Shown here piece by piece: positions 5,302 through 60,647 of a stretch of DNA of 64,000 bases. A program made the position numbers and the translations under genes. The notes under the pieces are model-generated. The model was not told the DNA's origin and did no database searches. It saw only the letters and a list, made by a program, of their open reading frames with translations. Position 1 is the stretch's first letter; every line of letters starts with the position of its first letter. Source of the stretch: Peronospora farinosa (lineage: Eukaryota; Oomycota; Peronosporomycetes; Peronosporales; Peronosporaceae); assembly GCA_947646735.1 (NCBI GenBank), contig CANTFK010000528.1:124001-188000 (forward strand), read 5' to 3'.

Positions 5302-8300
5302 ACAAATACTGTGTAACACGGCAGTGGCCTTTACCCAAAGAACAGTGTGACGTCATTGACGAGTTCTTTCGTGCAAAGCACGCGGCGGGCATGGTGCGTG
5401 AAAGTAAATCTCCGCACTCGACACCCACTTTCTGTGTTAAGAAACCAAATGGTAAATGGCGTATTGTTCATGCTTATAATAAGCTCAATGCGGCCACTAT
5501 ACCTGCACAGACACCGATACCTAGAAAGGATGTTCTTCAGAACAATATGGTCGGTTGTACCATGTACAGTGCGCTCGACTTAGTCGATGGTTATTACCAA
5601 TTGCTCATGCGAGCTAGTGATATTCCGCTTACTGCTGTTAGTACTCCGAGCGGTATGCTCTGGGAGTGGTTAGTGATGCCCCAAGGGCTATCTAATGCTC
5701 CGGCTACGTTTAACCGTTTGGTGACGCAATTGTTTCGACCCCATCGAAGTTATGCACAGACGTATTTTGATGACATTTTTGTCCATAGCCGAGCTGAACA
5801 TGGGCGGTCAGATATTGAGAACCATATTGTTCATTTACGAGCAGTGCTCGAGTGCATGCGCACTAATAAATTATATGCTAATGCCTCTAAGTGCATCTTC
5901 GGGGCCGAAGAAATTCCCTTTCTAGGGTGCTTCATTGGGAAGCGAGGACTACGAGCGGATCCCGCCAAAGTCAAAGCCATAGTCGATTGGCCTGTTCCAC
6001 AATCTCAGAAGGACTTGCGTAAATGGCTTGGCCTTGCCAATTACTTACACAAGTATAGCGAAAATTACGCTGATATGGCTCGGCCGTTATCCAATCTCCT
6101 TAAAAAGGATGTGGAATGGTGTTGGCATGCCGAACACGAAAATGCTTTTCAAGCAGTGAAGGCAAGCCTTCTACATGCTCCTATTTTGGCTTTGCCAGAC
6201 CCTGACCGACCGTTTAGCGTCGTCTGTGACGCATCGGATTTTGCCATTGGCAGTGCTCTGTTACAATCAGATGATGAAGGCCGTGAGCGTGTAATCGCTT
6301 TTGAATCTCGCCAGCTGAAAGCTGCAGAAAAGAACTATCCAGTTCACGACAAAGAGCTACTTGCGATGAAGTATGCCCTGGTCAAATTCAGAGTTCATCT
6401 GCTGGGCTCAAAGCCTTTTGTGATCTATACCGATCATGCGTCGTTACGCACTGCGACTCAGTCGCCGCATCTCTCGCAGAGAATGGCCAGATGGCTGTCA
6501 TTCTTTGCCGAATATAACTTCGAGGTGAAATATAAGCCGGGCAAGCAAAATGCTTTGGCTGATGCGTTGTCACGCAGACCTGATTATGAGCTTGCTCATG
6601 TGACGATGTTGTCGTCTTCTATCACCGATCTCATTCGTACGGCGTATGCTAAAGATGATCACTGTATAGCGTTGCTACATGCTCTTGGCAGTGAGGAGTT
6701 TAAAGACTCGGACATTAAATTGTCGGCACGATTGCGTGCAAGCCTCCATCGATATTCTATCGATGAGGGGCTGTTGTACTATCGTACAGATGTAGCGGAT
6801 CCTCCGCGTATTGTAGTTCCTCATGACGAGGACCTGAAGCATCGTATCCTCTATGAGGTACATGACACCGCCATCGGTGGTCATTTGGGTCGTGAAAAGA
6901 CCTATGGGGCAGTATGCCAAAGTTATTGGTGGCCCAAATTATACAAATGGGTGAGCACATATGTGCGTACGTGTGAAATGTGTCAGCGGGTGAAACCCTC
7001 GCCCCATTCGGCAGCGCCGCTGGCTAGTTTGCCTATTCCCACTGGGTGCTGGGAGTCCATTAGTATGGACTTTGTATTTGGCCTACCGAGAGATTCGCAT
7101 GGCAATACAGGTATTGTGGTCTTTGTTGACCGTTTGAGCAAGATGGCTCACTTAGCGGCTGTGCCAGATTCGATCGATGGTGTGGGTACAGCGGAGCTGT
7201 TTATCGATCGGGTGTTTCGCCAACATGGCTTGCCAGTGGCAATTGTTTCTGATCGTGATCCTCGTTTTACGAGTAAATTTTGGAAGTCCGTCTTCCAGGT
7301 GCTGGGCACCCGTTTGGACATGTCCACGGCGGATCATCCGCAGACCGATGGTCAAACCGAACGCGTAAATCGCGTTGTTGAAGATATCCTACGCAGCGTT
7401 TGTGCTGAAACGCCTAAGCGTTGGAGCTCTATGCTCCCTGTAGTTGAGTTTGCACTCAATAATTCCGTGCACGCCTCCACCGGCTACACTCCGTTCTATG
7501 TCAATGGTCTCACACACCCACGCGTTCCGTTAACGCTACCACCGAGTGGTTCAGGGCTTGGTGGGGGAGAGGTTGCCGATCGGCTTGCTGATGTCAGCCC
7601 TAATACTGTTAGGAAACAGGTAAATGCGTTTCTCGCAACGCGACTAAATGTCTTACGACATGTGCAAGATGCAATGGCTGATAGTCAAGATAAACAAAAG
7701 GAATATGCAGATGCGAAAGGCAGAGGTTGTATTAATGATTATGAGGTCGGAGACCAAGTATTACTTAATGCTAAAAACCTACCTACCAATGTAGTATCCG
7801 CTGTCTTTAAGACGAAGTTGCGTCCGCGCTTTATCGGACCCTTTAAGGTCATTGCCAAGAAAGGCACAGCGTATACGCTTAACTTGCCGCGCAAATTGCG
7901 TACACATCCTGTGTTCTATGTCGCCATGCTAAAACCTTATCGGGATCCGTCCCAAATAGACGCTAAGGCGCTCGCGCCGGGCCCATTGGCATTGTCGCGG
8001 GACGGAGCATCTGCACCAACAAGTCAAGTTGACCCTGCATTCGGGTCCGACTCTCTTCCAGGGACTCAAGCCGGGAGTTCATCGTCTGCCTCTCCTCACG
8101 AAGGGTCCGCACCTCCTGAACAAGCTCGGCATGAGCTTGTTCCGATACACCGACCTCCTCCTCCTTTGCTCGATGCGCAGGGGAACCTGCAGTTCCATGT
8201 GGAGCGTCTACTGCAGAAGCGTCGCCGCCATGGTCAAAACCAGTATCTGGTGAAATGGCGGGGTTATCCCGAATCATGGAATTCATGGGAATTTGAGACT

Positions 8301-8390
8301 CCCCTTCGGCAGGATTGCCCGTACGCCGTGGACGTTTTTGAGCGTCGTGCGCAGGGTCTGTCTGTTGGCGCTGACGCTTCTCACCAGTAA
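5298..8390 (+). CDS. pol: G1 Pol: RT, RNase H, integrase, chromodomain
   Basis: About 1,030 codons without a stop. RT covers roughly residues 30-240, with [10 protein letters not shown] and the catalytic YFDD near residue 156. RNase H (about 305-410) begins [10 protein letters not shown] and includes YTDHAS. Integrase has an HHCC zinc domain (about 515-570; CEMCQRVK) and a catalytic D, D-35-E triad: the D of SMDF, the first D of SDRDPRF, and the E of QTERVN, with exactly 35 residues between the last two. A GPF/Y module sits near 847. A chromodomain (about 966-1013; [16 protein letters not shown]) should steer integration to modified histones. The first codon is only where the frame opens; the true protein continues from the protease once the 11-bp insertion is allowed for. 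The last 428 nt are also read in antisense by another gene. Confidence 0.93.
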
Positions 8391-9246
8391 GGGTGAGGGT
8401 AGGCGGGTTAGCGGCCTCGGGCTGTCGTGAACTCGCGGCTACAGGGGTAGCCGAAACATTGGGCTGCTGGGCAGCAGGCGCATAATGCGTTCGTTGGGAT
8501 TTCAATTTCCCCCGGGCCTTCAATTTAGCGTAATCATAACGCATCTTCCGCTCAAGTCGGATATCTGCCACATCGGCGCTTGCCCGTAGGGCCCACATGC
8601 TGCTTAAACGTCGCGCATAATGCGCCCAGCGGCTGAAAGCCGTGTCTTCTTCGTCCTCGGTTTCCCCCGCGAACAGAAGGATGGGAACACCCTTCATCGG
8701 AGGAACTGGCGCACCGCGCACTTGCCTATTAAGGCGTGCCAAGTATTGGCTTTGAGTAGTGATATGGGGCTCCAGATATCGTTGTCGAAGTGCCGTGCGT
8801 GTGGCAACATCCTCAGGTGAAATGGCCTCAGGCCCAATGGTCCAACCAGAAAGGGAATGCCCAGATGCTTCCTTTAGACGTTCTTCCACCGTAGGTGGCT
8901 TGAACCTGTACTGTCGGTGGTCCTGCAGCCGCGTCATGTTCTTCGTTCGGCGCTTGGCGCCTTCCTCTTGGTCGATGGACCGCTGTTGCTGCTCGTCGAG
9001 TGGATTGGTAACCGTTACCGTTGATGATACGTCAGGCGGGTCACGTAACGCTGTTAGCGCATCTGCTGCACCACGTTCAGGGAACGGATTCGGTGCATGA
9101 CGAGTGTCATCTTCACCCGTGAGGGTGGCTAAAGGGGACCCATCGGGTCCCACAAAGACGGTGTCACTTTCGTAATCAACCGCTTCGTCAAGGTCGTCCT
9201 CAATGAGGTCCCTAAGAGTCTGTGACTCACTGCCGGGAGGCGTCAT
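7963..9246 (-). CDS. G1 antisense gene: coiled-coil protein with basic cluster
   Basis: 427 residues on the minus strand from an ATG at 9246, which lies 111 bp inside the 3' LTR, to a TAG at 7963-7965. The N-terminus is acidic. The middle is basic with many Arg. Residues around 285-320 carry two clusters (EKRQRQQ and QKRPRR) resembling a bipartite nuclear signal. The last 60 residues are a heptad-rich coiled coil ([17 protein letters not shown] and on). The final 428 nt overlap the chromodomain end of pol on the other strand. No known family recognised. G2, G3 and G4 have an antisense gene in the same place with the same kind of parts. It is probably transcribed from the 3' LTR, which is inference. 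It could be a chance open frame, but its length, ATG and counterparts argue against that. Confidence 0.75.
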   Translation of the reverse strand: MTPPGSESQTLRDLIEDDLDEAVDYESDTVFVGPDGSPLATLTGEDDTRHAPNPFPERGAADALTALRDPPDVSSTVTVTNPLDEQQQRSIDQEEGAKRRTKNMTRLQDHRQYRFKPPTVEERLKEASGHSLSGWTIGPEAISPEDVATRTALRQRYLEPHITTQSQYLARLNRQVRGAPVPPMKGVPILLFAGETEDEEDTAFSRWAHYARRLSSMWALRASADVADIRLERKMRYDYAKLKARGKLKSQRTHYAPAAQQPNVSATPVAASSRQPEAANPPTLTLTGEKRQRQQTDPAHDAQKRPRRTGNPAEGESQIPMNSMIRDNPAISPDTGFDHGGDASAVDAPHGTAGSPAHRAKEEEVGVSEQAHAELVQEVRTLREERQTMNSRLESLEESRTRMQGQLDLLVQMLRPATMPMGPARAP

Positions 9247-9348
9247 GTTGTGTGCCGTGAACAAACCGTGAGGTTTTAAAAGTTCGCTAAAGCACTACCT
9301 CTATGAGGAAAGATGTCGAGTGACATTCTATGGGAACGTCAGTCTGGT

Positions 9349-9995
9349 GGGGGAGGGTGTAACGGGGTTACACGACGGTTGTAACGTCTTTCCGAGAGTT
9401 TACGCTTAAACTCTCCTTTGTATTGCATATAATGCATTATTATACTTCTCGTTAGAGAGGTATTAAGTATGAGCGTTAAGATACGGTATTCGGTAATACC
9501 GTATCTTACCGATTAGGATTCGATGAATCGATAACGCTCCATTAAGTACATCATACACAGATGTTAAGACGATACGTCGTTCAATAGCAAAGTCTGCATA
9601 TAATAACTACTATTATAGTAATTAATCTAGTGTAGTGTACTTAAAGTAGGACTATTCATAATATCTTAAAGCATAAATAAAATCAGTTCTCCTTTTGAGT
9701 TTAAGACCACAAGTCGTTCTGACTTGTTCTCTTGTGCACTTCGTGCGTTGGTTCTCTGAACCCTAAGCTTCTAGCTTGCTCTTGCACTCTGTGCGTTGGT
9801 TCTCTGAACCTTAAGCTTATTGCTTGCTGACTAAGAGTCCCTCCTACTTCCTTAGAAGAGGGTGACTTTAACGTCGAATACTTAGTTCCTTAGAACTAAG
9901 TGGCTTTTAGCCTTAACTCTATTTAGTTCTCTCGAACTAAGAGGCTTCCAGCCGAAAGTCTTCCTCTGGCTAAAGAGCTGTGCAGCTCCGCTACA
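9349..9995 (+). repeat. G1 polypurine tract and 3' LTR
   Basis: GGGGGAGGG at 9349-9357 is the likely plus-strand primer. The LTR runs 9358-9995, 638 bp, and differs from the 5' LTR at a single base that I could find. The duplicated target GTGGC follows at 9996-10000. Confidence 0.93.
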
Positions 9996-10866
9996 GTGGC
10001 TGTTGTCTAACAGATTTAGAACCCCTGAAAGGGTCTTTATGTCGCTGAAGCTCGATGAAGGAAAAAAGCCATTGGAAAACCCACTGTTTTCCTTGTGGGA
10101 ATATTTTGTCAAGAAAACCACGCGTGAGATAGACGTGACCAAGGTGATGATAAAAGCTATGGTTAATGCATTGGGAGGTGAAAAGAAACTGGCCGAGATC
10201 CTTCTTCAAGCAAAGACTTCAGAAAGGAAATCTATATGCGATAAAGCTAGATATCTTTTTTCTTATCAAACTCACTACTGGATTCGAAATTCCTACACGC
10301 CAGAGGCTGTGTTCGAACTTCTGGGTCTCAACGATAAAAAGAATATCAAAGAAGTGGGCCCAGACGATTTTTACGCTTTAAAACATTCTTTAATTTTTAT
10401 TAAAGAACCGACTATAGAGAATTTATTGAAAGCATCGGACTCCAAGGAGCCATTGAAACCATCGGACTCCAAGGAGCCATTGAAACCATCGGACTCCAAG
10501 GAGCCATTGAAACCATCGGACTCAAAGGAGCCATTGAAACCATCGGACTCAAAGGAGCCATCGAAACCATCGGACTCAAAAGAGCCATCGGAACCATCGG
10601 ACTCAAAGGAGCCATCGGAACCATCAGATTTAAAGGAGCCATCGGAACCATCGGAAACAACAGATCTGACTCAGAGTTCGCTTGGAAAGCTTTGGATCGA
10701 ACACGTGTTAACAGTAGCAAAAAGTGGCCCTAGTTTTAAGTTAAACGAACGTGATAAAGGGTACGTGGTAGATGTTATAAGTAAACTCAAACGGAGCGTT
10801 TCTCCGAGTGCGGCCGTATACGTGATGCTAAGAGTGTTAGAAGGAGGCGCGGTTTCCCTTAAATAG
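9996..10866 (+). pseudogene. RxLR-WY effector pseudogene, 3' part (WY modules, repeat linker)
   Basis: This continues the gene cut at 1871. With one GTGGC copy removed, the frame crosses the insertion as a Trp-Trp-Leu motif that aligns with RWWLW of the effector at 22863-23906. It then reads about 285 codons to a TAA at 10864-10866. The order is TPERVF, LWEYFVKK (the W and Y of a WY module), a YLFSYQTHYW helix and YTPEAVFELLGL, matching TPDDVF, AWKYFVV and VKSVFHRLKL of the other effector. A 72-residue linker of eight SDSKEPLKP-like units follows, then a last module (LGKLWIEHVL...). The remaining frame is open, so loss is recent. No start codon serves it now. Confidence 0.82.
10435..10650 (+). 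repeat. 27-bp minisatellite inside the effector, eight in-frame copies
   Basis: Eight units of 27 bp code for SDSKEPLKP (four), SDSKEPSKP (one), SDSKEPSEP (two) and SDLKEPSEP (one). Neighbouring copies are most alike and the change runs in one direction, as expected from stepwise duplication. The period is a multiple of three. Confidence 0.95.
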
Positions 10867-24552: not shown

Positions 24553-25011
24553 TGTAACGGGGTGAGCCCGTTACATAATATTGACACTTATATGAAGTGT
24601 CAATAAAAATATTATTATAACTAATAATATTTTGACAATATTATCTTTTCTTATTATATTGTCCCCAGATCTCCTTGAAGTTGGAGATGCCCTCTCATTG
24701 GTTGATATGGGCCATCATATCAACCAACGCGCTGACCAATGACCGATGGACGCGCGCAATGAGTGGAGGGCAAGTTGTCAACATACATAGTTGTAGTTTA
24801 ATATAGCTAACATAGGTTATAACATATAAGTTTTATTAGACAGTTAACTATATTAAATACAGTTTTCTTTTCCCTCTCAACTAAGCGTTTGCTTCGTTGA
24901 TAAGCTTCCTCTGCTCACGTGTACGCGAGGTAATTGAGGCACCTGCTTTCACTGTAATCAGTGAAAGTAGACTATACTGTAATCAGTATAGTCGGAGGGT
25001 GCCCCATTACA
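24553..25011 (+). repeat. G2 5' LTR
   Basis: 459 bp, TGTAAC...TTACA. Dense stem-loops include TAACGGG/CCCGTTA, TTGACACTT/AAGTGTCAA, TTTCACTG/CAGTGAAA and ACTATACTG/CAGTATAGT. The primer-binding site TGGTAGCACTT follows at 25014-25024. Confidence 0.92.
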
Positions 25012-25453: not shown

Positions 25454-26361
25454 TGTGGTGGAGCGGGATTCGCAAAATTGCTGATGCGATTCCAACTCTC
25501 CACTGGCGCCCGGACGACCGACTAACGGAGGGGGTACCCCGATTCCGTGTATAAAGCCTTCCTCACCTTGTGTACCCGTCGGTAGGGCGGGTTGCTCTCT
25601 TCTCGGTGGACTTGAGTCGATGTTGATCTTAAACTGGGTTAGGGATAGGAGGTTTGGTTATCTTGTGGAAATCTTCACAAGATAAACCGAGTACTTGGTG
25701 TGATCTTCCCAATCGATCACGGTTATCCAATAAAGCGAAGCTTGAATCTTCTGACCACTTGAGCAGAACCTTCTGACCACTTGATCCGTCCTGCACTTGC
25801 TTCGCCTTGCCCTACGTGTTTTATCTGCGTCCGATCGCAATTGAGTTGTGTTGAGAGTTCTTGCAATCCCTGGCCAAACAATCCAGGGATATGACTTGCG
25901 CAGTGTGTAGGCTTCCTCGAGACGTTGGCTGGCCAAAGAATCCAGCCCGGAAGAGAAGTTGACACGTGTATCTGAAGTAAAATTGAACTCTGTTAATGTT
26001 AACCAATCAAATACCAAAACCTACGATTATGCCTATCTGTAGTCCAGGATCTATCACCACATGTCACCCTTCCAGGAAAAATCAGACCTCGATATGTGGT
26101 CCACCCCAAATGCCTTTGCCATCCCGATCCATCGGCGATCTTGCCTTATCCTTGGATCGCGTTCAGCCTTGAATCGCGGTCCTGATTCGGATCGCGGTCC
26201 TGATTCGGATCGCGGTCTACTTTGGATCGCGCTATACCTTGGATCGCGGTCCTGAGTCGGATCGCGGTCTACCTTGGATCGCGACCGATCCTGGGTGTGT
26301 GGTCCACATAACTTGGATCGCGATCTCCACTCCACGAAATTTGTTTAGCCGCTCTTCCACA
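25454..26361 (-). repeat. G3 3' LTR (908 bp)
   Basis: Matches 37010-38184 apart from two point differences near its outer end and a much shorter run of the 18-bp minisatellite (GGATCGCGGTCCTGATTC type), about 26140-26290. Confidence 0.92.
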
Positions 26362-26442: not shown

Positions 26443-28723
26443 ATGTCTTCTTCTTCGTCTGCGGCCGCTTCCCTTGTTAGCCGGGATGGTTCCGATTCTG
26501 TCGTATCTGCAAGCTCTTCAGCTGTCTCAAGACCTGGAAAGTCATGCCTGACTTCCGATCCGCCTATGAAACATTCTTATGGATCGCGGATTTTGCTTCC
26601 TTCTACTCGCGTAGAATTCCCGCCCGTGGTGGATCGTCATACCTTGGAGTCGTCAATCGCGGCATTGTACAATCGTTTGGACGCCCAAACTGCCGTCGTG
26701 GACAGTTATCGTTCCTTGGAAGATGCTCTACGAGAGCAAAAAGTGCGCTCTACTCGGCTGGAACGTGAATTGCAATCCTTCCGGGAATAGCACCTCCTCT
26801 GTCAAAATTCGTCTTGGATCGCTACAAGCGGCTTCAGGAACGTTACGACACTGCGATCCAGAAAGCTTAAGAATTTGAAGATGAACTGGGCCTGCGGGAG
26901 GACCAATCTCAAGAGATTGCAAGTTTGAAAACCGCTTTACTCAAAGCAAACACGGCGAACCAGCATGCTCAGGAGAGACACCGATGAGAAATGACCGTGA
27001 CTGAGCAAGTCTTGAAGGGTCAGTTCCAGATCCAGCTAGCTTCTTTCCAGGATCGTCTTGATACACTCCAAGCCACCCATGATGATCTTTTGAATGAGAA
27101 TCTTCGTAAAGATATCTCTTTGGATCAGCTACGGCGAAAAATCTTGGATCGGGAAATGAAACGCGATCAGGCCGTCCACGATCGGGATGCACTTCGATCC
27201 CATTTAGCCAAACTAGCTTCTGGAGCACTCCCAATCATCCAATCTGATCCTCCTGCACCAGATAGCTCGGCGTCCCGGAAAAGCAAACGGTCTTCGTCCC
27301 CATCAGCGGTCGAACTTCCACCCAAACGTCCTCGAGCCGTAGGCTCTTCTTCTTCGGGCCCGCCTGCCTCCAACCAAGGCAAAATTCCATCGATCCAGAG
27401 AAATGTCCCAGCACGATCCGCTAAATCAGCTAGTTCCACTGTACCAGCCCGATCTGTTGGATCTAAAAACGTGATCCGGATGCTTCCAAAGTTCAAGCAA
27501 AACCCCGGAAAAAACCTGCCGCCCCTTCGAAATCGAAAGGGAAGAAGAAAATTCCCACACCTCCGAAAAGGAAAAACAAGAAATCGATTCCTACGCCCCC
27601 TCCCTCCGAGTCAAGTGACGACGAAGAATTTTTGATTCTGGAGACTTCCTGCTTGCAGCCCTATCTGGATCGCGTTCTTCTTCTAGACGTCGTGGCTCGA
27701 CAACTGGGGTCTTCCCGTACGTTGGATCGCCTGGCTCCCCGATCAATGTCGACACCTCCAGTTCCACGTCTGAGTCACTCTCAGCATCGCCTGCTCCATC
27801 CGCTCCGACTAAAATTTCGAAAGTGGATCTTTTTGGAGAACCCTCTAGTGATTCTGAGGGTGCGGTTAGCTTCACCAGCGAATCCCGTGAGAAGATCAAC
27901 ATATTGCTTTTACCACACGAGTACGCCAATCTACCGGCTACTCAGAGGTCGCGCAATCAGTGGATCCCTGGATATCGCAAACGAATTCCTCGATCTTCAG
28001 CAGGTTGCGCCTTGGTCAGCCCGAAGAATTAGCTCTACCTGCGTGGCCGAGTTGGAAGTGGACTTCTTGTACAAGCATCTTTCTAAGCCCAAAGGATACC
28101 CTTTTCCCATACTGACTATATCCAAGATACCGCCATATGATTCACTATGGACGCCCAGGCTGGTCACTTCGGCGCAAATTGCAGTACTTTATGACCAGGA
28201 ACCATGGAAATCTCTTGATACTTTGGTCACCCCAGTTTCATTTCCGATGACTGGGTGGTTCGACGAGCTAAAAGTCCATTATTTTGATTTTGAAGATCGA
28301 CACCGGCAAGCGCTTTGGGAATCAACTCATCCGTTGTACCTATCGAAAGAGCAGCGTGAAAGCGATCCAGACTTGGCGAAGTTTTACCGGGAGCGTAAAC
28401 AACGTCGATCACGATCTGGTCCCCACTGTAAAACAGTACTTCGATTCTTTCTTCGGGGAATAATTATGGGGCACTGCGATCTGGATATCTTGTTGGATCC
28501 ATTTTTCCTCCATTTCCCTCAGTCTTCCGAAATACCAGTATGGTATCCTGGTTTGGACTGCAAGCAGAAAAACATCCCCAACCTGATTACTGCACTGTCG
28601 CTATTGGATTCTGCGGAGCCTTATGGGAATCAATATCTATCCTCTATCGCGGATCACCCCGGTTCATCCCTCGCCCTTTTATCCAGTAATTTTTTTTCCC
28701 AAACAGCAATCGTGATCCGATAA
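26443..28723 (+). pseudogene. G3 antisense gene: coiled-coil, basic cluster and conserved C-terminal domain
   Basis: The plus-strand ATG at 26443 lies 81 bp inside the 3' LTR. Pieces are 26443-26790, 26991-27635 and 27632-28723, so this copy has at least two breaks. Order: Ser-rich start; coiled coil (for example LRRKILDREMKRDQAVHDRD near 27130); nuclear-signal-like PPKRPR near 27325 among Ser/Pro; Lys-rich run; then a folded-looking domain of about 200 residues from 28060. That domain contains GWFDEL, RHRQALWE, RKQRRSR and GHCDLDILLDPFF, shared with the antisense gene of G4 and so under constraint as protein. It ends 194 bp short of the facing pol stop. The function is unknown. Confidence 0.8.
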
Positions 28724-28916
28724 CACTTCTTGATCGTTCAATACAATTCCGTTTTATTCCTCCTTTTCGTTAAAATTGTCTTCTTTTGTTGGGCTTCTTT
28801 AGCCGCGATCCAGTTTTCCAGACCTTCGATCGCCATACTCATTACACACAAATTTCCTTTCCACCACCCTATGCAACCTTCTTGCATATTATACCATTCC
28901 CAACACTCGATCTCCG

Positions 28917-30715
28917 TTAGCCACCAGATCCCTCTTCATGTGATTGCATCACTTCAAAACGATTCCGGCTAATCTCGCCACGTTCAAAATCTCGCAATAG
29001 GGCACCACAATTTAAGTCGGCTTCATCCACCCAGGATGGGTTAGCATAACCTTTCCAGTAGACTTTAAACTGTCTATGTACTCGTCCAGAACTTGTATTT
29101 CTATCAGACCGTACATCCACAATCTTTTCCACTTCGAATTCATCGTCTTCCAGATTACCTTCAAAACTATCTTCCGGCAAAAGCGCTTCATCAAAATCGA
29201 ATCGATACTCTTCTTCAATCGTCAGCAAATTTTTTGGACGATCAGGGAACGTCTTTACTCTCTTCAACTTGGATATATGTACGACGGGAAATAATCGATA
29301 TGGTGTACCAGCAATCTCCAGTCGGACAGCGTGATCTCCACACATTTCTTTTACTCGAAAAGGTCCATGCCACATATGTGCTAGCTTTCGAGCGTACCCT
29401 TCTTTCACCCGATCCAAATATAACCAGACTTGCACCCCTGGTTCAATTTCGTGAGGCTTGAGATCTTCATTGTGGCGATCAGCATGTGTTTGGATCGCAG
29501 TCCTGAGTCTCTCATTTACTGCTTCTCTCGCCCGCTGATAATGCCGCTGCACATGATATCGCCATCTACGTAGATCGCGATCCCGACGCCTCGTACTCCC
29601 TAATGGTAATGTAGCTTCCAACGTAGATCGCGGGTCCCAACCATGAATTAAGAAAAATGGCGTTTCGCCACGCACCCGATCTTGGGCGGTATTGATCGCG
29701 AAAGCTAGGCGTTCGGCATACTCATCCCAGTCTTGTTGTTTAACGTCAGAGACATACATCTTTAATGCACGAGTCAGAGTTTGCACCATACGCTCAGCCG
29801 TTCCATTTGCTTGAGGTCGATATGCCATCGTTGCCCTTTGCTTCTGTCCAACAATTCGGTTAAACGCACGAAAAAAATCCGACATAAACCCGGGCTCTCG
29901 GTCATGACGTATTGCTTCACTAGCACCAAAACGACGAAAGACACACACTCTTCATTATTTTTAGCGATAGTTTGGGCTGTTCGCGACGAACTTGCTTTGG
30001 CGATCACGTAGCCAAAAAATAAATCGACCCAGATAAGTAACTCGGTATTTCCTTTGAACGATTTAGGCAGAGAAGGTATGTGATCCATGGCGATAATTTG
30101 AAAAGGATAGGTAGAATGTAAATTCCCCGGTGATTCTCCATCAATCACGGGACGTCCCTTTCCAGTTTCACAATCTATGCATTGATTCACATAGTATTGA
30201 ACACTTCGATACAAACCCCTCCAGTGAAAATGCGCTCTGATCCGCTGGTAGATTCTCCCAATCCCCTGGTGACCCCCTTCCAAACTAGAATGATAATGAT
30301 GCAGGTTATCTTGCTGCAGATTTTCGGGCACCACCAGACGAGCGATTTCGTCCCGATCTTCGGATTTCGTTGTGGTTCCCGGGCAAAAATATAACAGATT
30401 ATCTTTATCCACTTCATAATCATTAGCCATCTTGGCACATGATTTCGCTTCCTCGACCGTCAATGTCGAAATGTCGACGACCAAATATGCCTTCAGATTA
30501 GCGATCCAGCGTTCTTCGTCTTGGGAACGCTGTATGCGATCAATTCTCATCTTCTGCACCATTTCTTCCTGCAAAATTTGTGGTTGTCGACGTTTTCTGC
30601 GTGGTGATCGAGCGATCGCCGCTACTTTAATCACTGAATTGGTCTCTTGAGGCTTTAGCAATTCATCCAACCGATTAAGCGTAATTAAATCTCGACGATC
30701 CTCATCCGTAATCAT
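28917..30715 (-). pseudogene. pol: G3 Pol: integrase and chromodomain
   Basis: Two overlapping minus-strand frames (29774-30715 and 28917-29948) show one frameshift near 29940. The zinc domain is HHYHSSLEGGHQG...CIDCETGKG. The catalytic core has AMDHIPSLPKSF, the D of HDREPGF, and an E 35 residues later in NGTAERMVQ. The GPF module is WHGPFRVKEM. The chromodomain at the end (EVEKIVDV..FKVYWKGYANPSWVDEADL) is clear. Integrase inserts the cDNA; the chromodomain probably targets heterochromatin. Confidence 0.88.
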
Positions 30716-43130: not shown

Positions 43131-43186
43131 ACACCACTGTCGCCACGCTGAGTACCAGCGTCTTGTCGTAGAGCTTACTCGACGAC

Positions 43187-46454: not shown

Positions 46455-46913
46455 GAGGGGGGGTGATGTAACGGGGTGAGCCCGTTACATAATATTGACA
46501 CTTATATGAAGTGTCAATAAAATATTATTATAACTAATAATATTTTGACAATATTACCTTTACTCATAATATTGTTCCCAGATCTCCTTGAAGTTGGAGA
46601 TGCCCTATCATTGGTTGAGATGGGCCATCATATCAACCAACGCGCTGACCAATGACCGATGAACGCGCCCAATGAGTGGAGGGCAAGTTATCAACATACA
46701 TAGTTGTAGTTTAATATAGCTAACATAGGTTATAACATATAAGTTTTATTAGACAGTTAACTATATTAAATACAGCTTTCTTTTCCCTCTCAACTAAGCG
46801 TTTGTTTCGTTGATAAGCTTCCTCTGCTCACGTGTACGTGAGGTAATTGAGGCACCTGCTTTCACTGTAATCAGTGAAAGTAGACTATACTGTAATCAGT
46901 ATAGTCGGAGGGT
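46455..46913 (+). repeat. G2 polypurine tract and 3' LTR (end truncated)
   Basis: GAGGGGGGG lies at 46455-46463, then TGA, then the LTR from 46467. Similarity to the 5' LTR stops at GGAGGGT (46913), about 12 bp before the expected TTACA end, so no target duplication can be read. Confidence 0.88.
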
Positions 46914-48918: not shown

Positions 48919-49409
48919 TCTGGAGTGTGAAGCTCGTCACCGTGGCCTCATACTGGCCCCTCCAGTACCGAATCTTGGACCGAGACGCTTTAACTTCAAG
49001 GCGATAATCCTTCCGGGTGGCGAGCGCATCTCGGTATTCCGAAATGGTTTGCTGGTCGGTTTCGTGATCGCGGACGAGCTTCCGAACTCGAGCCTCGATC
49101 CGGGGAAGATCAACTTTTCTAATCGAATGACCTCGTCCACGCGTCTCTGCAAGTCTTGGGCCCGGCGATGTTCAGCCTGATAGGCCTGCTGGAGGGCCCT
49201 ATGATTGTCAGAAGGGTCTCCATAACTTGGGCTCGTTCCATCGCCAGATGGATCGCTTCCCACGCCCGGGTAACACTCCCATAATCGGGGGGCTCCCCGA
49301 CGAGGTCTACAGTCGGAATAATCAAGGCAGGGTCAGGTCCAGGCAGTGGAGGGGTAGACCAACGGCCAGGTGCTGGGAGTTCGTCAGAGAAAGGACTGGA
49401 AGAGTTCAC
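48919..49409 (-). pseudogene. G4 antisense gene, N-terminal part
   Basis: Begins near 49409 with GTG (no ATG), about 140 bp from the LTR as in the other elements: Ser/Pro start, then helix TRAWEAIHLAMERAQVMETLL. A frame change leads to AYQAEHRRAQDLQRRVDEV, and a second change to IEARVRKLVRDHETDQQTIS and RKDYRLEVKASRSKIRYWRG, ending TLQ at the junction. Coiled coil throughout. Confidence 0.75.
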
Positions 49410-49546
49410 TGGTGAATAAAGGGTGGGTGAGTTGGTGAATACGGAGGATCGTCAAGCACATGGACACCTACTTATATGTTGAGGAGACGGGACAAGGATG
49501 CACGGGGTCTTGCAGCAGTTCGGAAGACCAGCGCGAATGGGACAGC

Positions 49547-50762
49547 TGTGGAGAAGTGCCAGAGAAATGGGGGGCCCTTCGTAGTTATTATAATAACTGG
49601 CGTGAAAGATCTCGGTCACTCTCTTGAATGAGTGACAGGGAGTGACCAGGGCCCCGAACTGGTCCAAGGTCCCGAGTTCGGAGAAGGTACTAGGATGTCC
49701 TACACTACAGACCAAAGGACCAGTGCTGCTAGGGCAGCTTAGGTTGACCCCAGGTAACAGGTGGGTCCCAGACAACAGGTGGACCCAGGTGACCGGTGGA
49801 CCCCAGGTAACAGGTGGGCCCCAGACAACAGGTGGGCCCAGGTGACCGGTGGACCCAGGTGGCCAGTGGACCCCAGGTGACAGGTTGACCCAGGTGACCG
49901 GTGGACCCAGGTGGCCAGTGGACCCCAGGTGACAGGTGGACCCCATGGTACCGGGGATACCGGGGTACCGAGGCCCAGGGTACCAGGGGTAAAGGGGCCC
50001 AGGGGTACAGGGGCCCAGGGGTACAGGGGTAAAGGGGTACAGGGGCCCAGGGGTACCAGGGCCCAATGTCCGAGGGTGCAGAACCGGAAAACAGAATATC
50101 GAAGATTACAGAAAGTACAGGGTACCAAGTAGCCAGTTCTTCCTCCAAGAGTCGGCACGTGGCACTATCCAGATCAAAGGGTTAGGGTTAGGCAAGAAAA
50201 GCATACAAGGTATAAGATGAATAAACACACTCGAATTCGCATTACACGTGGCAGCTTTAATCACCCCTTCTAAGCTTCTCCGTCGCTTCACCTCTTCCGG
50301 GCGGGATACCCTTTGGCCCCCCGACGTCCAGCAGGTGTTAGACGGCTCAAGCAACGCAAGTTGAGCCTCAGGATAGTTGGCTTGAGGTGTCAAGACTCTA
50401 CGACCCGCTACAGGAAGCGGTTTCCCTACGGGGAAGAACACAAAGGGGTCCAAGGACCAAGAACAGTCAGCCACCAAAGGGGTAGGTGCATCGCTTTCGA
50501 CTAAGTCGATCGAGAACAAGAAACCCGGTCCCAAGTGAAGTATATCCACTCGGGGACCACCAAGTCCAAGTCTTATACTAAGACCAAGTCTTTAAGTCTT
50601 CTGCGTCTAACGAGGAGCAAGACCAGCCAAGCCGACGGGTACACAAGGTGAGACCCAAGGTTGACGCGACACGGTATCGGGGTACCCCCTCCGTAAGTCG
50701 GCAGTCCGGCGCTGTGTGTGTTTGTGGTTCTCTCACGTTGTTTGAGAATCCACTTCACCACA
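49547..50762 (+). repeat. G4 LTR (1,216 bp), the only one in the unit
   Basis: TGTGGAG...CACCACA. Two GC-rich minisatellites: GGTGACCGGTGGACCCA type (49740-49945) and GGGGCCCAGGGGTAC type (49975-50070). GGGTTA twice at 50179-50190. Downstream, A then TGGTGCGCGTGCCCGGAT is the primer-binding site; its complement ends ...CACGCGCACCA, as a tRNA 3' end would. Confidence 0.93.
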
Positions 50763-53240: not shown

Positions 53241-54424
53241 AACGCTCGCCAGGTTTGAATCTGGTACTAGCCGAGCGTTCTAATTGTTGCATTTATGCAT
53301 TTGTGGAGAAACACCCCGTGGAGAAGGTCAATAAGTTGGATGAATTGATTGGAAATACATCGGGCTTTTGCATTAATTCTGTTGCTGCTGTGGTTAATGC
53401 ATGTATACCTCACGTTTATCCCCGAGGAGAGACTATGATGACATTGGATTTATTACCGGGAAAGTCAAGAGGATACTGGAAACACCATGCCCCAGGGAAG
53501 TGGTTTAAGCAAGCCAAAGCCTCTGGAAAAGTTAACAATATTTGTGCGGATCTACTGTTTGATTCTGGTGCCGAGATATCTATTTTGGATATCGCCTTTG
53601 CTCGTAAGGCAGGCTGTCAGATTAACACAAGCGAAAAACAAGAGTGCGTGGGCATTGGAGAAGCAGTTTACACCACGGAAGGGCGAACGAAGATTAAGAT
53701 AACGCTGAATGGTGTATTAGTATACTTTTTCAATGTGTGGGTCGGGTCCATGGCCGGCCAGGATGTACTACTATGGATGGACTTTATGGTGCCCGCTGGA
53801 ATTCGTTTGGACATGGCGGATGGAACTATTTGCTTGCCAGACGAAGTTCGAATCCAGCTGATAGGTCGCAAGACCTTGTATAGTGGCCATATTTCTGAGG
53901 TAAAATTGGGCCAGTACGTGAATTTACCGGCGATAAAATATATCGAGGTTCCGCTGAAGAGGTCTATGTTGGACCAGTGGAAATTATGGATGACCCGTAG
54001 AGACAGATGGGTGATTACGATGATCCAAGGACATGGACATCGCCAATTCTTGAGGGTCACCAATGTGAGTGACAAGGACCTGATCCTACACGAGGATACC
54101 AGGCTGGGCATTTGGCTGTCTAAGGACCGGGTTCCCCGGGCCCAAGGATTCGTGTCAGTTGGTTCTAGGAGGTACGCTGAATGGAAAAATCTAGCCTATC
54201 AAGCAACCAACGATGAGGAGGATGCAGAAACTACTCAAGAAGAAGTATACCAAGGTCCGATGGTCGAGAAACCTCAGTACGCGACTCCACAGAAGATGTT
54301 GCTACGGACGGGGACCCAAGTGCCAGTGGTTAACGCGGTGCACGAGTCTGTTATGAGGGACCCTGAGTCATTACCATCAGATCAGGAGTCTGGAGGGGAG
54401 GCCCTCGATAGAGGTCAACCCTAG
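53241..54424 (+). CDS. pol: G4 aspartic protease
   Basis: In one frame with the end of gag (open from 53141). GKSRGYWKHHAPGKWFKQAK, catalytic LLFDSGAEISILD, DFMVPAGIRLDMADGTICLP as in G3. Ends at a TAG (54422-54424). Confidence 0.85.
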
Positions 54425-54425
54425 C

Positions 54426-55319
54426 GTGGGCAACGAAGTATCATCGAAGATTAGGACCGATATGGAGAGGGTCCACCCAGAGGAGGGTCCACAGGTCCAC
54501 CCAGAGGGGGGTCCACCGGTCCACCCAGAGGAGGGTCCACCGGTCCACCCAGAGGAGGGTCCACCGGCCCACCCAGAGGAGGGTCCACCGGCCCACCCAG
54601 AGGAGGGTCCACCGGTCATCGAGGCTGAAGTAGATACTCCCGATGACCAAGTCTGTGTTCACGAGAGTGGAGATTTATGTGCCGAAGATATCGACAAAAA
54701 TTGGTCTGTTATTCCTGAGGTCACCCCATCCACGAACGAAGTTATGTTGGAAGACATCCAGATCCCAGACCCCGGTGATACCCCAAAGGAGGAGGTAGAC
54801 AGCCTCCGCCAGATTATATGGAGAAAACGACATTTGCTGATGGGAAAAGATAACGCATTACCCCCGGTGGCTCGAGGAGCAGTGTGCGACATTGATGTTG
54901 GGAACGCACGGCCAATCGCCCAACGGGTACGGAAGGTGGCCCCTCAATTTAGGGAGAAGCTGGCAGACCTGATAAAAGGTCTCTTGTCATCCAACATAAT
55001 CCAGCATTCCACCTCCCCATGGGCCAGTCCAACTGTAATTACTGTCAAGAAGAATGGGGTGGATATAAGGCTGTGCATTGACTACCGGATGGTGAATGAC
55101 TTAACGCGGCTTATGGTGTACCCTATGCCTCTCGTGAATGAGTTGCTGGAAGCCCTAGATAAGGCCCTGTGGTACTGCTCACTGGATATGGCTAGCGTTT
55201 TTTGGGTGGTCAGCATGACTGAACGAGCACGTTTAATTTCGGCGTTTGTAACCCCGCTCGGATTGTTTAAGTGGAGACGAATGCCGTTTGGACTGAAGAA
55301 TGCACCACAGATCTATTAG
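54426..55319 (+). pseudogene. pol: G4 repeat spacer and RT N-terminal half
   Basis: From 54470 to about 54620 a 24-bp unit codes for VHPEEGPP about six times; its DNA is built on GGTCCACC, the word of the LTR minisatellite. RT follows: VDIRLCIDYRMVNDLTRL, RMPFGLKNAPQIY, then a TAG (55317-55319) where G3 has Gln. Confidence 0.88.
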
Positions 55320-56171
55320 AGATTGTTGAATAATGCTTTATATGGGTTCCTAACGATTTTCTCGAAGTCCAACACTGAGAAACAGGTTGACCTGTTCGAA
55401 ATAGGTCAACCTGAAGCGGACCACGAGGAGTCCATATTAGGACGCCGGTCTTATATCGATGATATTTTGGTAATCTCTGGATCATGGGATGACCTATGCT
55501 TAAAAGTGGAAAGACTATTGGAGGTTTGTGATAAGTGGAATTTATCGATCAGCGCGGTCAAAAGTTCATGGGGATGTAAAAAAGTTGATTATCTGGGGCA
55601 TCGAGTGTTTGCGGAGGGGTTGGAGGCCCACCCTAAGGATCTTCAGTCATTGGTGGACTTACCGCTTCTCACCACCCTAAAAGCCATGCAGTCGTTTCTT
55701 GGAAGTCTCAATTACTATAGCCGGTTTCTAGAAGACTACGCGATTTATGCGTCCATATTGTACGAGCTAAGAGAAGTGGATTATCACGTGTTACGACGCC
55801 GGATGAGTGGGACTGAGGACCCCCAGAGGAGTGACCAGGAGGAAGACCGATGGACTCGGGTGCAGGTGGCCTTTGCGATATTGAAGAATAAGATAGTCAT
55901 CGCCCCAATCCTCCGCCATTTTGATCCAGACCGGGAGCCTGTCATCATCGTCTATGCCAGTGAGTGGGCCATCTCGGCATCCCTGGTGCAGGAGTATGAG
56001 GGGGTGTATATGCCGGTCACTTTCACGAGTCGGACTTTGAAGCCAAACGAGATCAACTATGGGCTGGTGGACAAGAAAGTGTTGTTGCTATTGCGAATAC
56101 TAGACCTTTGCTACACGTCGCTGGTCACCCGACCTATCAAGGTCTTAACCCGACACTCAACGCTGGCGTAA
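55320..56171 (+). pseudogene. pol: G4 RT C-terminal half and RNase H
   Basis: Same frame as before the TAG. Catalytic SYIDDILVISG, VDYLGHRVFAEGLEAHPKDL, FLGSLNYYSRFL, and RNase H with VYASEWAISASLVQE and LKPNEINYGLVDKKVLLLLR. A TAA at 56169 interrupts after RHSTLA. Confidence 0.88.
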
Positions 56172-56288
56172 TTAGTACGGTCACCGGGTTTACAAGGTCG
56201 CCTTGGAAACTGGGCTGCACTCCTGTCCCAATGGACGTTAGAAGTGGTCAAGTGTAAGCGCGGCGAAGATGAAATACTGGGGACATAA

Positions 56289-58256
56289 GTGGCAAGCATT
56301 ACGCCTCGCGAAAATGTGGACTCTATTCTATCTTCAATCGCCCCAAAGAAACACCCGCGCCAAGCTATCACGGTGGTTCCTCCTACAGTCGAACCCGAGG
56401 AAGTCTTGTACGTGGTCAGTTTCGATGGGTCTGCACGAGTTAGACGTGGGGGCGGAGCCTGCAGTGCAATCGTATGGCAACTCCCAGGGTGGACCGTGAT
56501 TGCAGCAGCGTCAAGATATTTAACGGAGGCAACGGTAAACGAAGCAGAGTATGAGGGCCTATTGTTATGTTTTAGCCTACTGGAGAAATTTGATCGTAGA
56601 CGTCTGGTGGTGTGCGGTGATTCCAATCTGGTAATCCGTCAAATGCGAGGGGAAATTGAATGCAAGGCACCAGGTCTCACGGTACGAAGGTTGAAGGCCC
56701 TGGACGGGCTCTTTTCCTGGCCAGCCCATGGGTTTCTACACATTAAGCGTAAATGGAACCAGAGTGCGGACCGTCTCGCTAACGCGGCCCTGCAACAACA
56801 ACAAGGGGTCAAAATAATACTTGAGGAAGAGTGGAAAGACCTCGAAGAGATTAATCGTCTGCCTGAACTCTTGGTACCCAAGAATCCCAGCCCAGCAATG
56901 CGAATTACAGCTGTCACGAGGTCTCGGGTCCGGTCCAGGATGCCTACAGAGGTTGTGCAAGAAGAGGTGGTGCAACGGATACGAATTGAGCGAATTTCGG
57001 CTGCCCAAGACAAAGAAATGTGGATACGGGATTTGAAGCTCTACTTACGGGGTGAGTGGAGCAGTTTACCCGCAGAAGTGGCGTTGGCATGCGGCAAGAT
57101 CGAGACGAATTACGCTTTGGATGATGACGGACTTATATTGTATTGCCCGGGTCTGGGGACAGCTGAAGAGGATCGCGATGGGTGGATCCGGCTAGTGATA
57201 CCTGAAAGCCTACAACAAGATTTTCTGCACCATTACCACAAGAGTCTTGAAGGGGGACACCAAGGAATCGGCCGCACGTACCAGCGGATACGAAGGCATT
57301 TCCATTGGAGAGGGTTGTTTCGAAGTGTACAGCGCTTCGTTGGTACTTGTGTCGACTGTGAGACCGGAAAAGGTGGATCCACCTTACGAGGAAAGACCCC
57401 AGGGAATGTTCGGGCAACCTACCCATTTCAGGTCATCGCGATGGATCATATTCCATCGTTGCCCAAGTCGTTTAAGGGAAACACGGAGCTGTTGATATGG
57501 GTGGACCTGTTTACTGGTTATGTAATTGCTAAGGCCAGCTCATCGAGGTCGGCTCAAACCGTGGCAGAAGGGTACGAAGAATGTGTATTTCGAAGGTTTG
57601 GGGCTAGTGAGGCGATCCGACACGACAGGGAACCAAGTTTCATGTCGAATTTCTTTCGTGCTTTCAACCGCATGATTGGGCAAAAGCAGCGGGTCACCAT
57701 GGTCTACCGGCCGCAGGCCAATGGAACTGCGGAAAGGATGGTACAGACGATCACCCGAGCTATCAAGATGTATGTGTCGGAGGTGGACCAGAAAGATTGG
57801 GATGCATACGCGGAACGGCTCACATTTGCGCTGAACACGGCGCAGTACCGGGTCCGAAAGGAGACTTCGTTCTACCTGGTGCATGGTTATGACGCACGAA
57901 GCACGTTGGAGGCCACTATACCGCTGGGTAGTGCCAGGCGGCGTGACTGTGACCCCCGACGGTGGCGATATGGCGTACAGCGACAGTATCGCCGGGCAAG
58001 GGAACAAATCAACGAGTTATTGCGATCAGCAATGGAAAGTCGAGCCGAAATTCACAATGAAGAGGTGGCGAATAGCATGATTGAGGCAGAATCTCAGGTG
58101 TGGTTGTATCCAGACCGGGTCAAGGAAGGCTATGCCCGAAAATTGGCCCACCTATGGCATGGGCCATTCCGAGTACGGGAGATGGTGGGGGACCATGCAG
58201 CTCGCCTGGATATCAGTGGGACCGATTATCGCATTTACCCGCTGGTGCAACTTTAG
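56289..58256 (+). CDS. pol: G4 second RNase H and integrase
   Basis: 655 codons without a stop. Second RNase H: SFDGSARVRRGGGA, NEAEYEGLLL, VCGDSNLVIRQM, WNQSADRLANAA (D-E-D-D complete, unlike G3). Integrase: HHYHKSLEGGHQG..CVDCETGKG, AMDHIPSLPKSF, the D of HDREPSF and E 35 residues later in NGTAERMVQ, then WHGPFRVREM. A TAG at 58254 cuts it from the chromodomain. Confidence 0.9.
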   Translation: MASITPRENVDSILSSIAPKKHPRQAITVVPPTVEPEEVLYVVSFDGSARVRRGGGACSAIVWQLPGWTVIAAASRYLTEATVNEAEYEGLLLCFSLLEKFDRRRLVVCGDSNLVIRQMRGEIECKAPGLTVRRLKALDGLFSWPAHGFLHIKRKWNQSADRLANAALQQQQGVKIILEEEWKDLEEINRLPELLVPKNPSPAMRITAVTRSRVRSRMPTEVVQEEVVQRIRIERISAAQDKEMWIRDLKLYLRGEWSSLPAEVALACGKIETNYALDDDGLILYCPGLGTAEEDRDGWIRLVIPESLQQDFLHHYHKSLEGGHQGIGRTYQRIRRHFHWRGLFRSVQRFVGTCVDCETGKGGSTLRGKTPGNVRATYPFQVIAMDHIPSLPKSFKGNTELLIWVDLFTGYVIAKASSSRSAQTVAEGYEECVFRRFGASEAIRHDREPSFMSNFFRAFNRMIGQKQRVTMVYRPQANGTAERMVQTITRAIKMYVSEVDQKDWDAYAERLTFALNTAQYRVRKETSFYLVHGYDARSTLEATIPLGSARRRDCDPRRWRYGVQRQYRRAREQINELLRSAMESRAEIHNEEVANSMIEAESQVWLYPDRVKEGYARKLAHLWHGPFRVREMVGDHAARLDISGTDYRIYPLVQL

Positions 58257-58325
58257 AAGTTGAAGCTAGTCCGGCAATATCCTGACAGACCGAATACGGT
58301 TTTGGTGGTGAAATAAACGGATCAG

Positions 58326-58598
58326 GTGGATTTTGACGAAGCCCTGCTACCAGAGGATAGCTGGGATGCGGAATTGAAAGACAATGAGTATGAAGTGGAG
58401 ATGATTATCGACAAGCGCATGGGAAGAAAAACTCGATATGGTCGTATTCAATGTGAATACCTGGTGCAGTGGAAAGGATACTCCGATCCGTCGTGGGTAG
58501 ACGAGGTGGACCTCAATTGCGATGGACTACTTGAGGACTACGAACGCAGGCAAGTCACTCGGAATCGTTTTGAGGTGATGCAGAGCCATGAGGAGTAG
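58326..58598 (+). pseudogene. pol: G4 chromodomain
   Basis: Separated from integrase by two stops. FDEALLPEDSWDAEL, EVEMIIDKR, EYLVQWKGYSDPSWVDEVDL and the family end RNRFEVMQSHEE, as in G3. Confidence 0.88.
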
Positions 58599-58856
58599 AA
58601 GGGAGAGTTCATCTTGGGAAGTCCAAGATGATGCAAGAAGGAGGTGTTATTTGTTGCATGCACAGAAATTGGTCAAATATGTATTCTAGAAGTGCAGCAG
58701 AACAAGAAGAGTGAAGTATTGCTAACCTGTAGAGGACACCGAGGGACTATCTAAGATATGGCACCAAAGAGGAAGATCGAGAATGTGCTTGGGATTTCGA
58801 GGTGAAATGGCATTATCTCGGCTTATTAAGGATGCACTTAAAGCTAGTGATAACCC

Positions 58857-60647
58857 TCAGGCGGTGTCGGGTGGAGAAAACTTGCCATGGAGACGGGGAA
58901 CCCCGAAAGCGGGATGCTCGTGGATGTTCTTGTGGTAAAAGATGCGCCACGGTTCGACATCATCCACCACCTGCAACGCCGCCATAAGCCCCGGTTGAGA
59001 ACTCTCCTGGTTGACCCTTGGGGTCCAGTAAGACAGTTGACGCGTGGGGGTAACGGGCTGGAAGAAGGGGTCCAGCAGGATGTCCAAGTCACAGTGACCT
59101 GCTACCATCCCCTGCAGGACCTTCTTCAGCACTCCCATCCAAGCCTGTGTCGCCTTGGCCCGTCGTTTTTTCCTGGCGTTGTAAATGCGGGAGATGTACG
59201 CACTGCCGGCACGAAGAGTTATGGAGAAATGAAGACGGTGCCGGTCCTCCCACAAACTCTGGCGCGATGCGTCTGCGTAGGCATCGTAAAGCTCCACCAG
59301 TCCAACAAACCAGCCGTTTACGGAGAACGAGAGAGGATACTCAGACATCGTCTGCTTCTCCCATGGGCGCGAGTTCATCAACAGCCGGAGCTGAGATTCC
59401 GTTACGAGACTATTAGTCTCGCCCAGGCGGTCCTTTGATCTTTTGTCTAAAGGGGGGCTCGGACCCATCCACGAAGCTGGAAGGGTTATGCGAGACCACA
59501 GGTCCTTCACGCTTAATTGCAAGATCGCAAGGGGGCCCACCATAGAGACGGGCCATGGGGCAACGTCTTCGGTCTTGAACACACTTGGCTGGGCGTATCC
59601 CGGAATGGATAGGCCCCAGGCGTTGGAACCAGCGGGACCTTTGGATGCTGGCACCCCTTGATCATCAGAGTCGAGACTCTTAGTATCGGACTCGGAAGGA
59701 CCGAAAAGCTGGATGAACAGGTTGGAATGAGGCGTGGGCGTCTTTTCCGAGCTAAAAGAAGCAGCAAGTGACGTCTGTACCTTGGGAGGAGGCTTGTCCA
59801 TTGGTTTCCCAGTGGGCCCCGCCGGTTTCGCTGGTTTCTTAGTGGACCCCGCCGGTTTTGGAAGAGGCTTCGACGTCGGTTTCAGAGTGGACCCCGCCGG
59901 TTTTGTTGGTTTCCCAGTAGATTCCGCCGGTTTTGGAAAAGACTTGGACGTTGGTTTCCCAGTGGACCCCGCCGGTTTCGAAGAGGCTTGGACGTTGGTT
60001 TCCCAGGGGACCCCGCCGTTTTCGTTGGTTTCCCAGTGGACCCCGCCGGTTTCGGAAGAGGCTTGGACGTTGGTTTCCCAGTGGACCCCGCCGGTTTGGG
60101 AAGAGGCTTGACTTTTGGTCTCCCAAAGGACCGCACTGGTTTGGACTCCGTTGATGTTGGGAGAGGACCGGACTTGGGTGTCCCAGTAGATCCCACGGAC
60201 GTCGAAGAAGGGCCGGATGTCGTTTTACGAGATAAGTCCACCACCTCTGGAGCGGGTTTCTCCACGGAAGTCACCGGGCTACCACGACGACCGTGACCGA
60301 GCCATGGCCGCTAGCAGAGACTAGTCGCTGCTACTGGACTCGTCTTCAGGGGAACTTGGGGCACGGGTGGTCCGACGCTTCTTCGATGTGGAAAAGGCTG
60401 GAACTTCGGCAGTAGGAGACCAAGATCTTTCAGCCCTTGAAGGTCCTGGGACCTTAGTCTTAGGCGAGGCAGATCTATCCGCGGCGCTCCGAGCTACGGC
60501 CAGCTGTTTCTGGAGTTGGTCCCGTTGGCAGGCGACTTGCTTCACGAGGTCTTTAGAGCGGGCCAGCTCATCTCGAAGTAGTGATACTTGAGATACTGTG
60601 GACCGAAGATCGGCCGTGGTGGTATCCAACTTGGCCTCCAGCTCTTT
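58857..60647 (-). pseudogene. G4 antisense gene, C-terminal part
   Basis: Reading down from 60647: coiled coil KELEAKLDTTTADLRS...LLRDELARSKDLV, then STSKKRRTTR (nuclear-signal-like) and a Ser/Glu end with a stop at 60321. After that comes a repetitive stretch (60115-59800) of KPAGSTGKPT units built on CCAGTGGACCCC, then an open 314-residue frame 59801-58857. That frame has GWFVGLVELYDAY, RQSLWEDRH, RKKRRAK and GHCDLDILLDPFF, matching G3. It ends 258 bp from the facing pol stop. Confidence 0.8.

Follow-up and report, generated by a model that had tools for sequence, protein, structure and literature searches.

Opposite-strand genes between pol and the 3' long terminal repeat of Gypsy retrotransposons in the downy mildew Peronospora farinosa

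Results

Antisense genes in four Gypsy units

The 64-kb stretch of the Peronospora farinosa genome analysed here (contig CANTFK010000528.1, positions 124,001 to 188,000; hereafter, the window) contains four Gypsy long terminal repeat (LTR) retrotransposon units, G1, G2, G3, and G4, and in all four a coding sequence antisense to gag-pol lies between pol and the 3' LTR (Table 1). It is intact in G1 and frame-broken in G2, G3, and G4, the last of which is circularly permuted as well. This arrangement, reported initially in a sequence-only reading of the window, turned out to be wider than stated there, as it is found in copies elsewhere in the genome and in two further families, F and H, described below. 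The same reading had counted four separate genes, but G3 and G4 carry one gene type, and the four units represent three types. The comparison of copies supports purifying selection on the antisense gene as a protein gene, most clearly in G1 outside pol, also in subfamily C of the Chronos elements, and more weakly in the other families. As for the role, we set the probability at about one half for the following explanation: the Gypsy elements of this genome carry an opposite-strand gene, changed most often at its own third codon positions in the best-tested families, and its coiled-coil product would be imported into the nucleus to modulate the expression or insertion of the element.

G1 is a complete 8.1-kb element (gag, protease, reverse transcriptase, RNase H, integrase, chromodomain) with 638-bp LTRs, flanked by a 5-bp target duplication, GTGGC (1867-1871 and 9996-10000). 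Its antisense frame overlaps the last 428 bp of pol, tail to tail (7963-8390), and its ATG at 9246 is 111 bp from the 3' LTR, which begins at 9358; the distance is the same as noted initially. The layout of G2 is as in G1, with an overlap of ~670 bp with the pol end. G3, nested inside G2, and G4 were assigned to Chronos, a described group of oomycete Gypsy elements, based on RNase H domains plus a chromodomain, as in the published Chronos elements; the second, archaeal-type RNase H (RVT_3) is seen in the G4 pol and the native RNase H in the G3 pol, that is, in two different units, and the chromodomain matches PF00385 in G3 and was recognized in G4 by eye and similarity only. The chromodomain-like stretch of G4 (58317-58598) matches the pol end in 20 out of 20 fetched loci of Chronos subfamilies A and B, with the antisense gene placed tail to tail. 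In these 20 loci the antisense frames do not overlap pol, the match ends being 255-334 bp apart.

Open frames and relatives

The antisense proteins were used as queries against the 46.85-Mb assembly, with only the best-scored candidates listed. At least 100 matches were obtained for G1, at least 152 for G2, at least 122 for G3, at least 132 for G4, and at least 148 for family F; the G3 and G4 lists overlap partly, and these numbers are not copy numbers, because only the best candidates were scored and one broken copy can yield several matches. Intact frames, counted from the first ATG, have 427 codons in G1, ~590 in G2, and ~690, 663, 742, ~900, and 718 in Chronos subfamilies A, B, C, D, and E, respectively, and relatives of the G3 gene are intact elsewhere at ~900 codons. 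For A, C, G1, and G2, each of the other five frames of the antisense stretch is interrupted by 5 to 59 stops in intact copies. Among the best-scored G1 rows covering residues 1-433, 33 out of 61 have no stop. The C-terminal domain common to the G3 and G4 products, noticed in the sequence-only reading, is indeed retained in five Chronos subfamilies, with sequences 24-50% identical to the first alignment row.

Relatives of the G1 product comprise 69 proteins, mostly 41-60% identical and down to 30%; the named ones come mainly from Peronospora matthiolae and Hyaloperonospora, and also from P. effusa (including the nearest named one, 96% identical) and P. destructor, plus one distant, partial Phytophthora sojae protein. 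The G2 product has 184 relatives, and the 120 of these that were listed include a P. matthiolae cluster of 1335 members. All these relatives are gene predictions. The findings also carry a warning for annotation: well over 1000 "uncharacterized proteins" in one downy mildew gene set, i.e., this cluster, are likely retrotransposon genes. The search with the Chronos A1 protein returned nothing, near copies included, which is no evidence of absence, as low-complexity words likely swamped the candidates; one scan of viral contigs yielded no relatives of the Chronos antisense protein either.

Codon-level selection on the antisense frame

The codon tests used copies with long intact frames, at loci picked for open frames and hence not a random sample: 14 out of 14 rows plus the window copy for G1, eight out of ten for G2 (L039 and L043 out), nine out of 12 for Chronos A (L009, L019, and L020 out; L006 and L010 start late), five out of eight for B (L016-L018 out), eight out of eight for C, and five out of six for D (L057 out); Chronos E (two rows) was used only between subfamilies. 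The pooled within-family ratio of nonsynonymous to synonymous differences per site (pN/pS) is 0.38 in G1, 0.40 in C, 0.41 in D, 0.51 in B, 0.59 in G2, and 0.63 in A.

Because copies drift after insertion, changes common to two or more copies are more telling than singletons. In every one of the six families tested, pN/pS is lower for shared changes than for singletons, although B and D have only nine and three shared changes, respectively, and C shows little difference (0.35 vs. 0.39). Outside pol, the values for shared and singleton changes are 0.18 and 0.53 in G1, and 0.27 and 1.05 in G2. In the ordered domain of G1, outside pol, the shared changes are distributed as 6/1/34 over antisense codon positions 1/2/3 (P = 9e-11), whereas opposite the pol chromodomain the distribution flips to 0/10/1, antisense position 2 being the wobble position of pol. 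With this strand switch, G1 cleanly illustrates how selection on two overlapping genes can be assigned to one strand or the other.

In Chronos C, the third-position excess is seen for all changes (85/70/153) and for singletons (69/58/128, P = 6e-8), with the shared changes at 16/12/25 (P = 0.08). Between Chronos A and B, the C-terminal domain has a dN/dS (the ratio of nonsynonymous to synonymous substitution rates) of 0.21 (bootstrap 0.07-0.31) at dS of 1.7, the remaining subfamily pairs being saturated at synonymous sites. Within five close Chronos A copies, the values for the parts of the antisense gene are 0.43 for the coiled-coil half, 0.53 for the C-terminal domain, and 1.16 for the Ser/Pro repeat.

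The predicted product

A coiled coil, which had been claimed for every product in the window, is predicted in eight out of nine representatives, where the heptad-like periodicity exceeds that of shuffled sequences (P <= 0.01), and the ninth, from family H, has P = 0.06. A basic cluster (K[KR].[KR] or four K/R), claimed likewise, occurs in seven out of nine (shuffle P from 0.003 to 0.057). In the predicted models of the G1 and G2 products, a long terminal helix accompanies a single ordered helical domain. When six frames of the window and ten further proteins (intact or related) were compared with Pfam, no family reached its cut-off, and neither PF04195 (TRP28) nor the basic leucine zipper (bZIP) families matched at E <= 0.1. 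The sequence search in PDB returned merely coiled-coil proteins and chance matches.

Further families and apparent turnover in the slot

Six further loci (L061-L066) were fetched beside long frames of Gypsy reverse transcriptase and sorted by eye into families F (two loci) and H (four loci). All six have an antisense coding sequence of their own type at the pol end, intact in L061 (958-2370, 471 codons stop to stop), long in L066, and broken or partial in the other four. Its product is arginine/serine (RS)-rich and has a Cys pair, and the overlap with pol amounts to ~500 to 1050 bp. The F and H products are 43% identical over 181 residues, and outside both pol frames these families show a modest third-position excess (31/32/51).

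G1, G2, and H have integrase cores with 62-66% identity (24-29% to Chronos), whereas the antisense products of G1, G2, Chronos, and F/H show no detectable relationship, and thus the slot is kept while its content, as far as judged by sequence, is not. A common origin of these products was considered and found no clear support, as the hhalign profile comparisons gave probabilities of at most 5%. The G2 and F/H profiles follow the expected order when aligned and have in common a C..C and an LQ.SW.AFI-like stretch (E = 0.029); searched with the G2 profile, F/H scores no higher than shuffled sequences, and with the F/H profile G2 reaches 7.7 bits (E = 0.16), a value that comes without the control of shuffled G2. 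Within Chronos, identity of the B loci is 78-86% to the chromodomain of G4 and 57-61% to the antisense C-terminal domain of A. It appears from these comparisons that the slot may be retained while the protein in it is replaced or diverges beyond recognition, as with retroviral accessory genes.

No Gypsy family lacking the antisense frame turned up among ten types of loci, with no search aimed at such elements, and ten types are too few to call the frame universal. Tentatively, the antisense slot could be general among the Gypsy elements of oomycetes, with unrelated coiled-coil proteins having occupied it on at least four occasions and serving as a fast-changing module of counter-defence or self-control; together with the second RNase H, this would amount to a convergence of Chronos, Tat, and HTLV-like arrangements. 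We regard this reading as a whole as possible but doubtful.

Discussion

Proposed role and alternatives

The assessment of the antisense product as a regulator of its own element builds on the position and strand of the genes, their intact frames in many copies, the selection seen in Chronos C and, outside pol, in G1, the domains conserved within each type, and downy mildew relatives for G1 and G2, in combination with the predicted coiled coil and the one ordered helical domain predicted in G1 and G2. The antisense transcript would start in or beside the 3' LTR, the product would self-associate or dimerise through the coiled coil, the basic cluster would take it into the nucleus, and there it may act on the promoter, RNA, or integration complex of the element. 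From this combination, we infer a function as nuclear regulator.

Several observations weigh against this role. By codon position, Chronos A is weak (singletons 137/126/170, shared 12/12/15), B is borderline (shared 0/3/6), D has no signal, and G2 is borderline, both overall (shared 6/8/17, P = 0.04) and outside pol (4/4/11, P = 0.08). Among five closely related Chronos A copies, constraint on the antisense frame (0.75) does not exceed that on pol (0.74). Even in G1, the ordered-domain singletons are distributed as just 11/16/21, and where the coiled-coil part lies opposite the pol linker neither strand prevails (shared 5/8/8 in G1 and 2/4/5 in G2). Of the nine representatives scanned, those from F and H have no basic cluster, RS-rich stretches being found in its place; the cluster occupies the best 12-column bin in 12 out of 43 G1 relatives and 28 out of 34 G2 relatives; and the G1 cluster, QKRPRR, is encoded opposite the chromodomain, a region in which the pattern of shared changes is that of pol rather than of the antisense frame, so the nuclear-signal argument is weak for G1. 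Finally, the oomycete promoter block of initiator (INR) and flanking promoter region (FPR), as defined in PMC3599244, was sought in seven stretches that precede the start on the antisense strand and in one sense-strand control; the best scores equalled those of shuffled sequences in all seven, and likewise in the control.

The main rival explanation is that the antisense proteins counteract the silencing of the element by the host, at the RNA or chromatin level, and that an arms race drives their replacement or rapid divergence. It would fit the fast turnover, namely, the lack of detectable relationship between the G1, G2, and H products despite the similarity of their integrase cores and, in Chronos B, the lower identity of the antisense C-terminal domain compared to the chromodomain, and a silenced element would benefit from such a factor. 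We consider counter-defence a serious but unlikely candidate, as the products have no similarity to any known suppressor, fast divergence by itself is unspecific, and the strong constraint on the G1 domain is equally seen in plain structural proteins. Another alternative is an accessory role in replication: a coiled-coil factor would work inside the particle, act as a chaperone, or help to transport the pre-integration complex, with no control over transcription. The coiled coil, the basic and RS-rich stretches, and the location, resembling that of env or accessory genes, are compatible with this role; nevertheless, such proteins could be encoded by the sense RNA, and an antisense gene points to separate timing, making this option improbable in our view.

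Should the antisense RNA itself be active, by pairing with the sense transcript at its 3' end into double-stranded RNA, the protein would be secondary. The tail-to-tail overlap with pol in G1, G2, and F/H is what such a mechanism would use, but selection in G1 acts at the codon level outside the overlap, and the Chronos A and B frames stop short of pol, so that a primary role of the RNA seems quite improbable. Chance open frames caused by base composition or the opposite coding strand deserve next to no weight: openness could be a by-product in those parts of the G1, G2, and F/H frames that lie opposite pol, but, these parts excepted, chance is already contradicted for G1 and Chronos by 430-900 codons open in many copies with at least five stops in each other frame (A, C, G1, G2), by the conservation of the domain across Chronos subfamilies and of G1 among its relatives, and by the strand switch of wobble positions in G1.

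Comparison with known antisense genes

Antisense genes of LTR elements have so far been mainly a story of plants and human T-cell leukemia virus (HTLV), with their function for the element unknown. Antisense accessory open reading frames (aORF-3R) are described in plant Gypsy elements, i.e., maize Grande (gene23), rice RIRE2, Silene Retand, and bean PvRetro13, and the Grande product is reported to be nuclear (PMC7264820, PMC11963269); elements of the Tat lineage also have a second RNase H (PMC7264820, PMC11963269, PMC5348765). The oomycete genes share with aORF-3R the place between pol and the 3' LTR and the orientation antisense to gag-pol, and Chronos, as described, shares with the Tat elements the second RNase H. 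They differ in the host group and the chromodomain-containing pol, in the overlap with pol in G1 and G2, and in the lack of a match to TRP28 (PF04195), the plant family covered by the comparison. The plain reading would be convergence.

Outside plants, the fungal Gypsy element Boty of Botrytis is reported to have an antisense frame between pol and the 3' LTR (PMC7264820); the place and strand are the same, and the comparison is one of position. HBZ of HTLV-1 is encoded by an antisense gene at the 3' end of the provirus and is a nuclear regulator with a bZIP coiled coil, active as both RNA and protein (PMC10186651). The comparison with HTLV, drawn in the sequence-only reading, is one of position and layout; no bZIP family matched, and the genes described here belong to retrotransposons of an oomycete.

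Chronos elements of oomycetes have been described with RNase H domains and a chromodomain, and a word search of the main text of the defining paper finds neither "antisense" nor "opposite" (PMC5348765); the antisense gene would extend the element as described. In the open-licence literature searched, including PMC12477816, PMC10508981, and PMC6264045 and judged mainly on titles and beginnings of abstracts, no antisense gene is described for an LTR element of an oomycete, in line with the initial claim. Thus, the kind of gene is known from plants, fungi, and HTLV, no oomycete description was found in the literature searched, and the match is by position, with a protein family differing from those tested. 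Codon-selected antisense genes in several Gypsy families of one downy mildew genome suggest that the slot arises repeatedly, and therefore its role can be tested by cross-kingdom comparison.

Features of the window

Table 1. Coordinates of the Gypsy units and their antisense genes in the window.
Feature	Position	Strand	Basis or remark
G1 5' LTR (TG...CA)	1872..2509	+	self-blastn, 99.5% over 644 aligned bp
G1 pol: reverse transcriptase, RNase H, integrase, chromodomain (8193-8348)	5277..8390	+	Pfam
G1 antisense gene, 427 amino acids, intact; ordered domain residues 80-250, coiled coil 369-414 (predicted)	7963..9246	-	
G1 3' LTR (TG...CA)	9358..9995	+	self-blastn; boundaries read; purine-rich tract immediately before
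G2 5' LTR	24553..25000	+	self-blastn, 96.9% to 46467-46913
G3 3' LTR, ends approximate	25454..26361	-	self-blastn, two pieces paired with 37010-38184
G3 antisense gene, frameshifted; coiled-coil part first, conserved C-terminal domain ~27990-28700	26443..28730	+	
G3 pol end with chromodomain	28917..29951	-	Pfam PF00385
G2 antisense gene, frameshift-broken; overlaps pol tail and chromodomain	44659..~46418	-	upper end approximate, from tblastn match
G2 3' LTR	46467..46913	+	self-blastn
G4 antisense gene, N-terminal coiled-coil piece, split off by circular permutation	48919..49241	-	
G4 pol end, two frames: second (archaeal-type) RNase H and integrase 56289-58256; chromodomain-like 58317-58598	56289..58598	+	Pfam RVT_3, integrase; chromodomain-like part by similarity
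G4 antisense gene, main part and conserved C-terminal domain, broken/permuted	58857..60683	-	collinear DNA match to 60646

One more copy, L002, is continuous where the window reads 58535-60646 and then 48919-49949, and hence G4 is circularly permuted. The order of the permuted unit (48919-60646) is the N-terminal piece of the antisense gene, one LTR, gag-pol, and the remaining antisense gene; a single LTR between the split halves is expected of a one-LTR circle or recombination. The permutation explains why the sequence-only reading had joined 58857-60647 to 48919-49409: the sequence of both parts is real, but there is no splice. Both flanks of the permuted G4 have a GGTGCAAATTT-like repeat, and the left one also has a poly-G run. 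Next to it, there is an inverted pair of Chronos LTR stretches, 47391-48659 and 49547-50762, ~97% alike in the main piece.

In G1, the protease frame contains an 87-bp tandem repeat (4170-4850, six copies in register). The frame 10003-10866 (+), which starts directly after the G1 3' LTR and contains a 27-bp tandem repeat, and the frame 22863-23906 (-) match PexRD54_WY, a Pfam WY-domain family of the oomycete effector type. The 861-codon frame 15467-18052 (-) has no Pfam match at E <= 0.001. Near the window end, there is a leucyl-tRNA synthetase frame (61939-63960), a 1-kb stretch of which has a 98.6% identical inverted copy 41 kb away (20670-21697).

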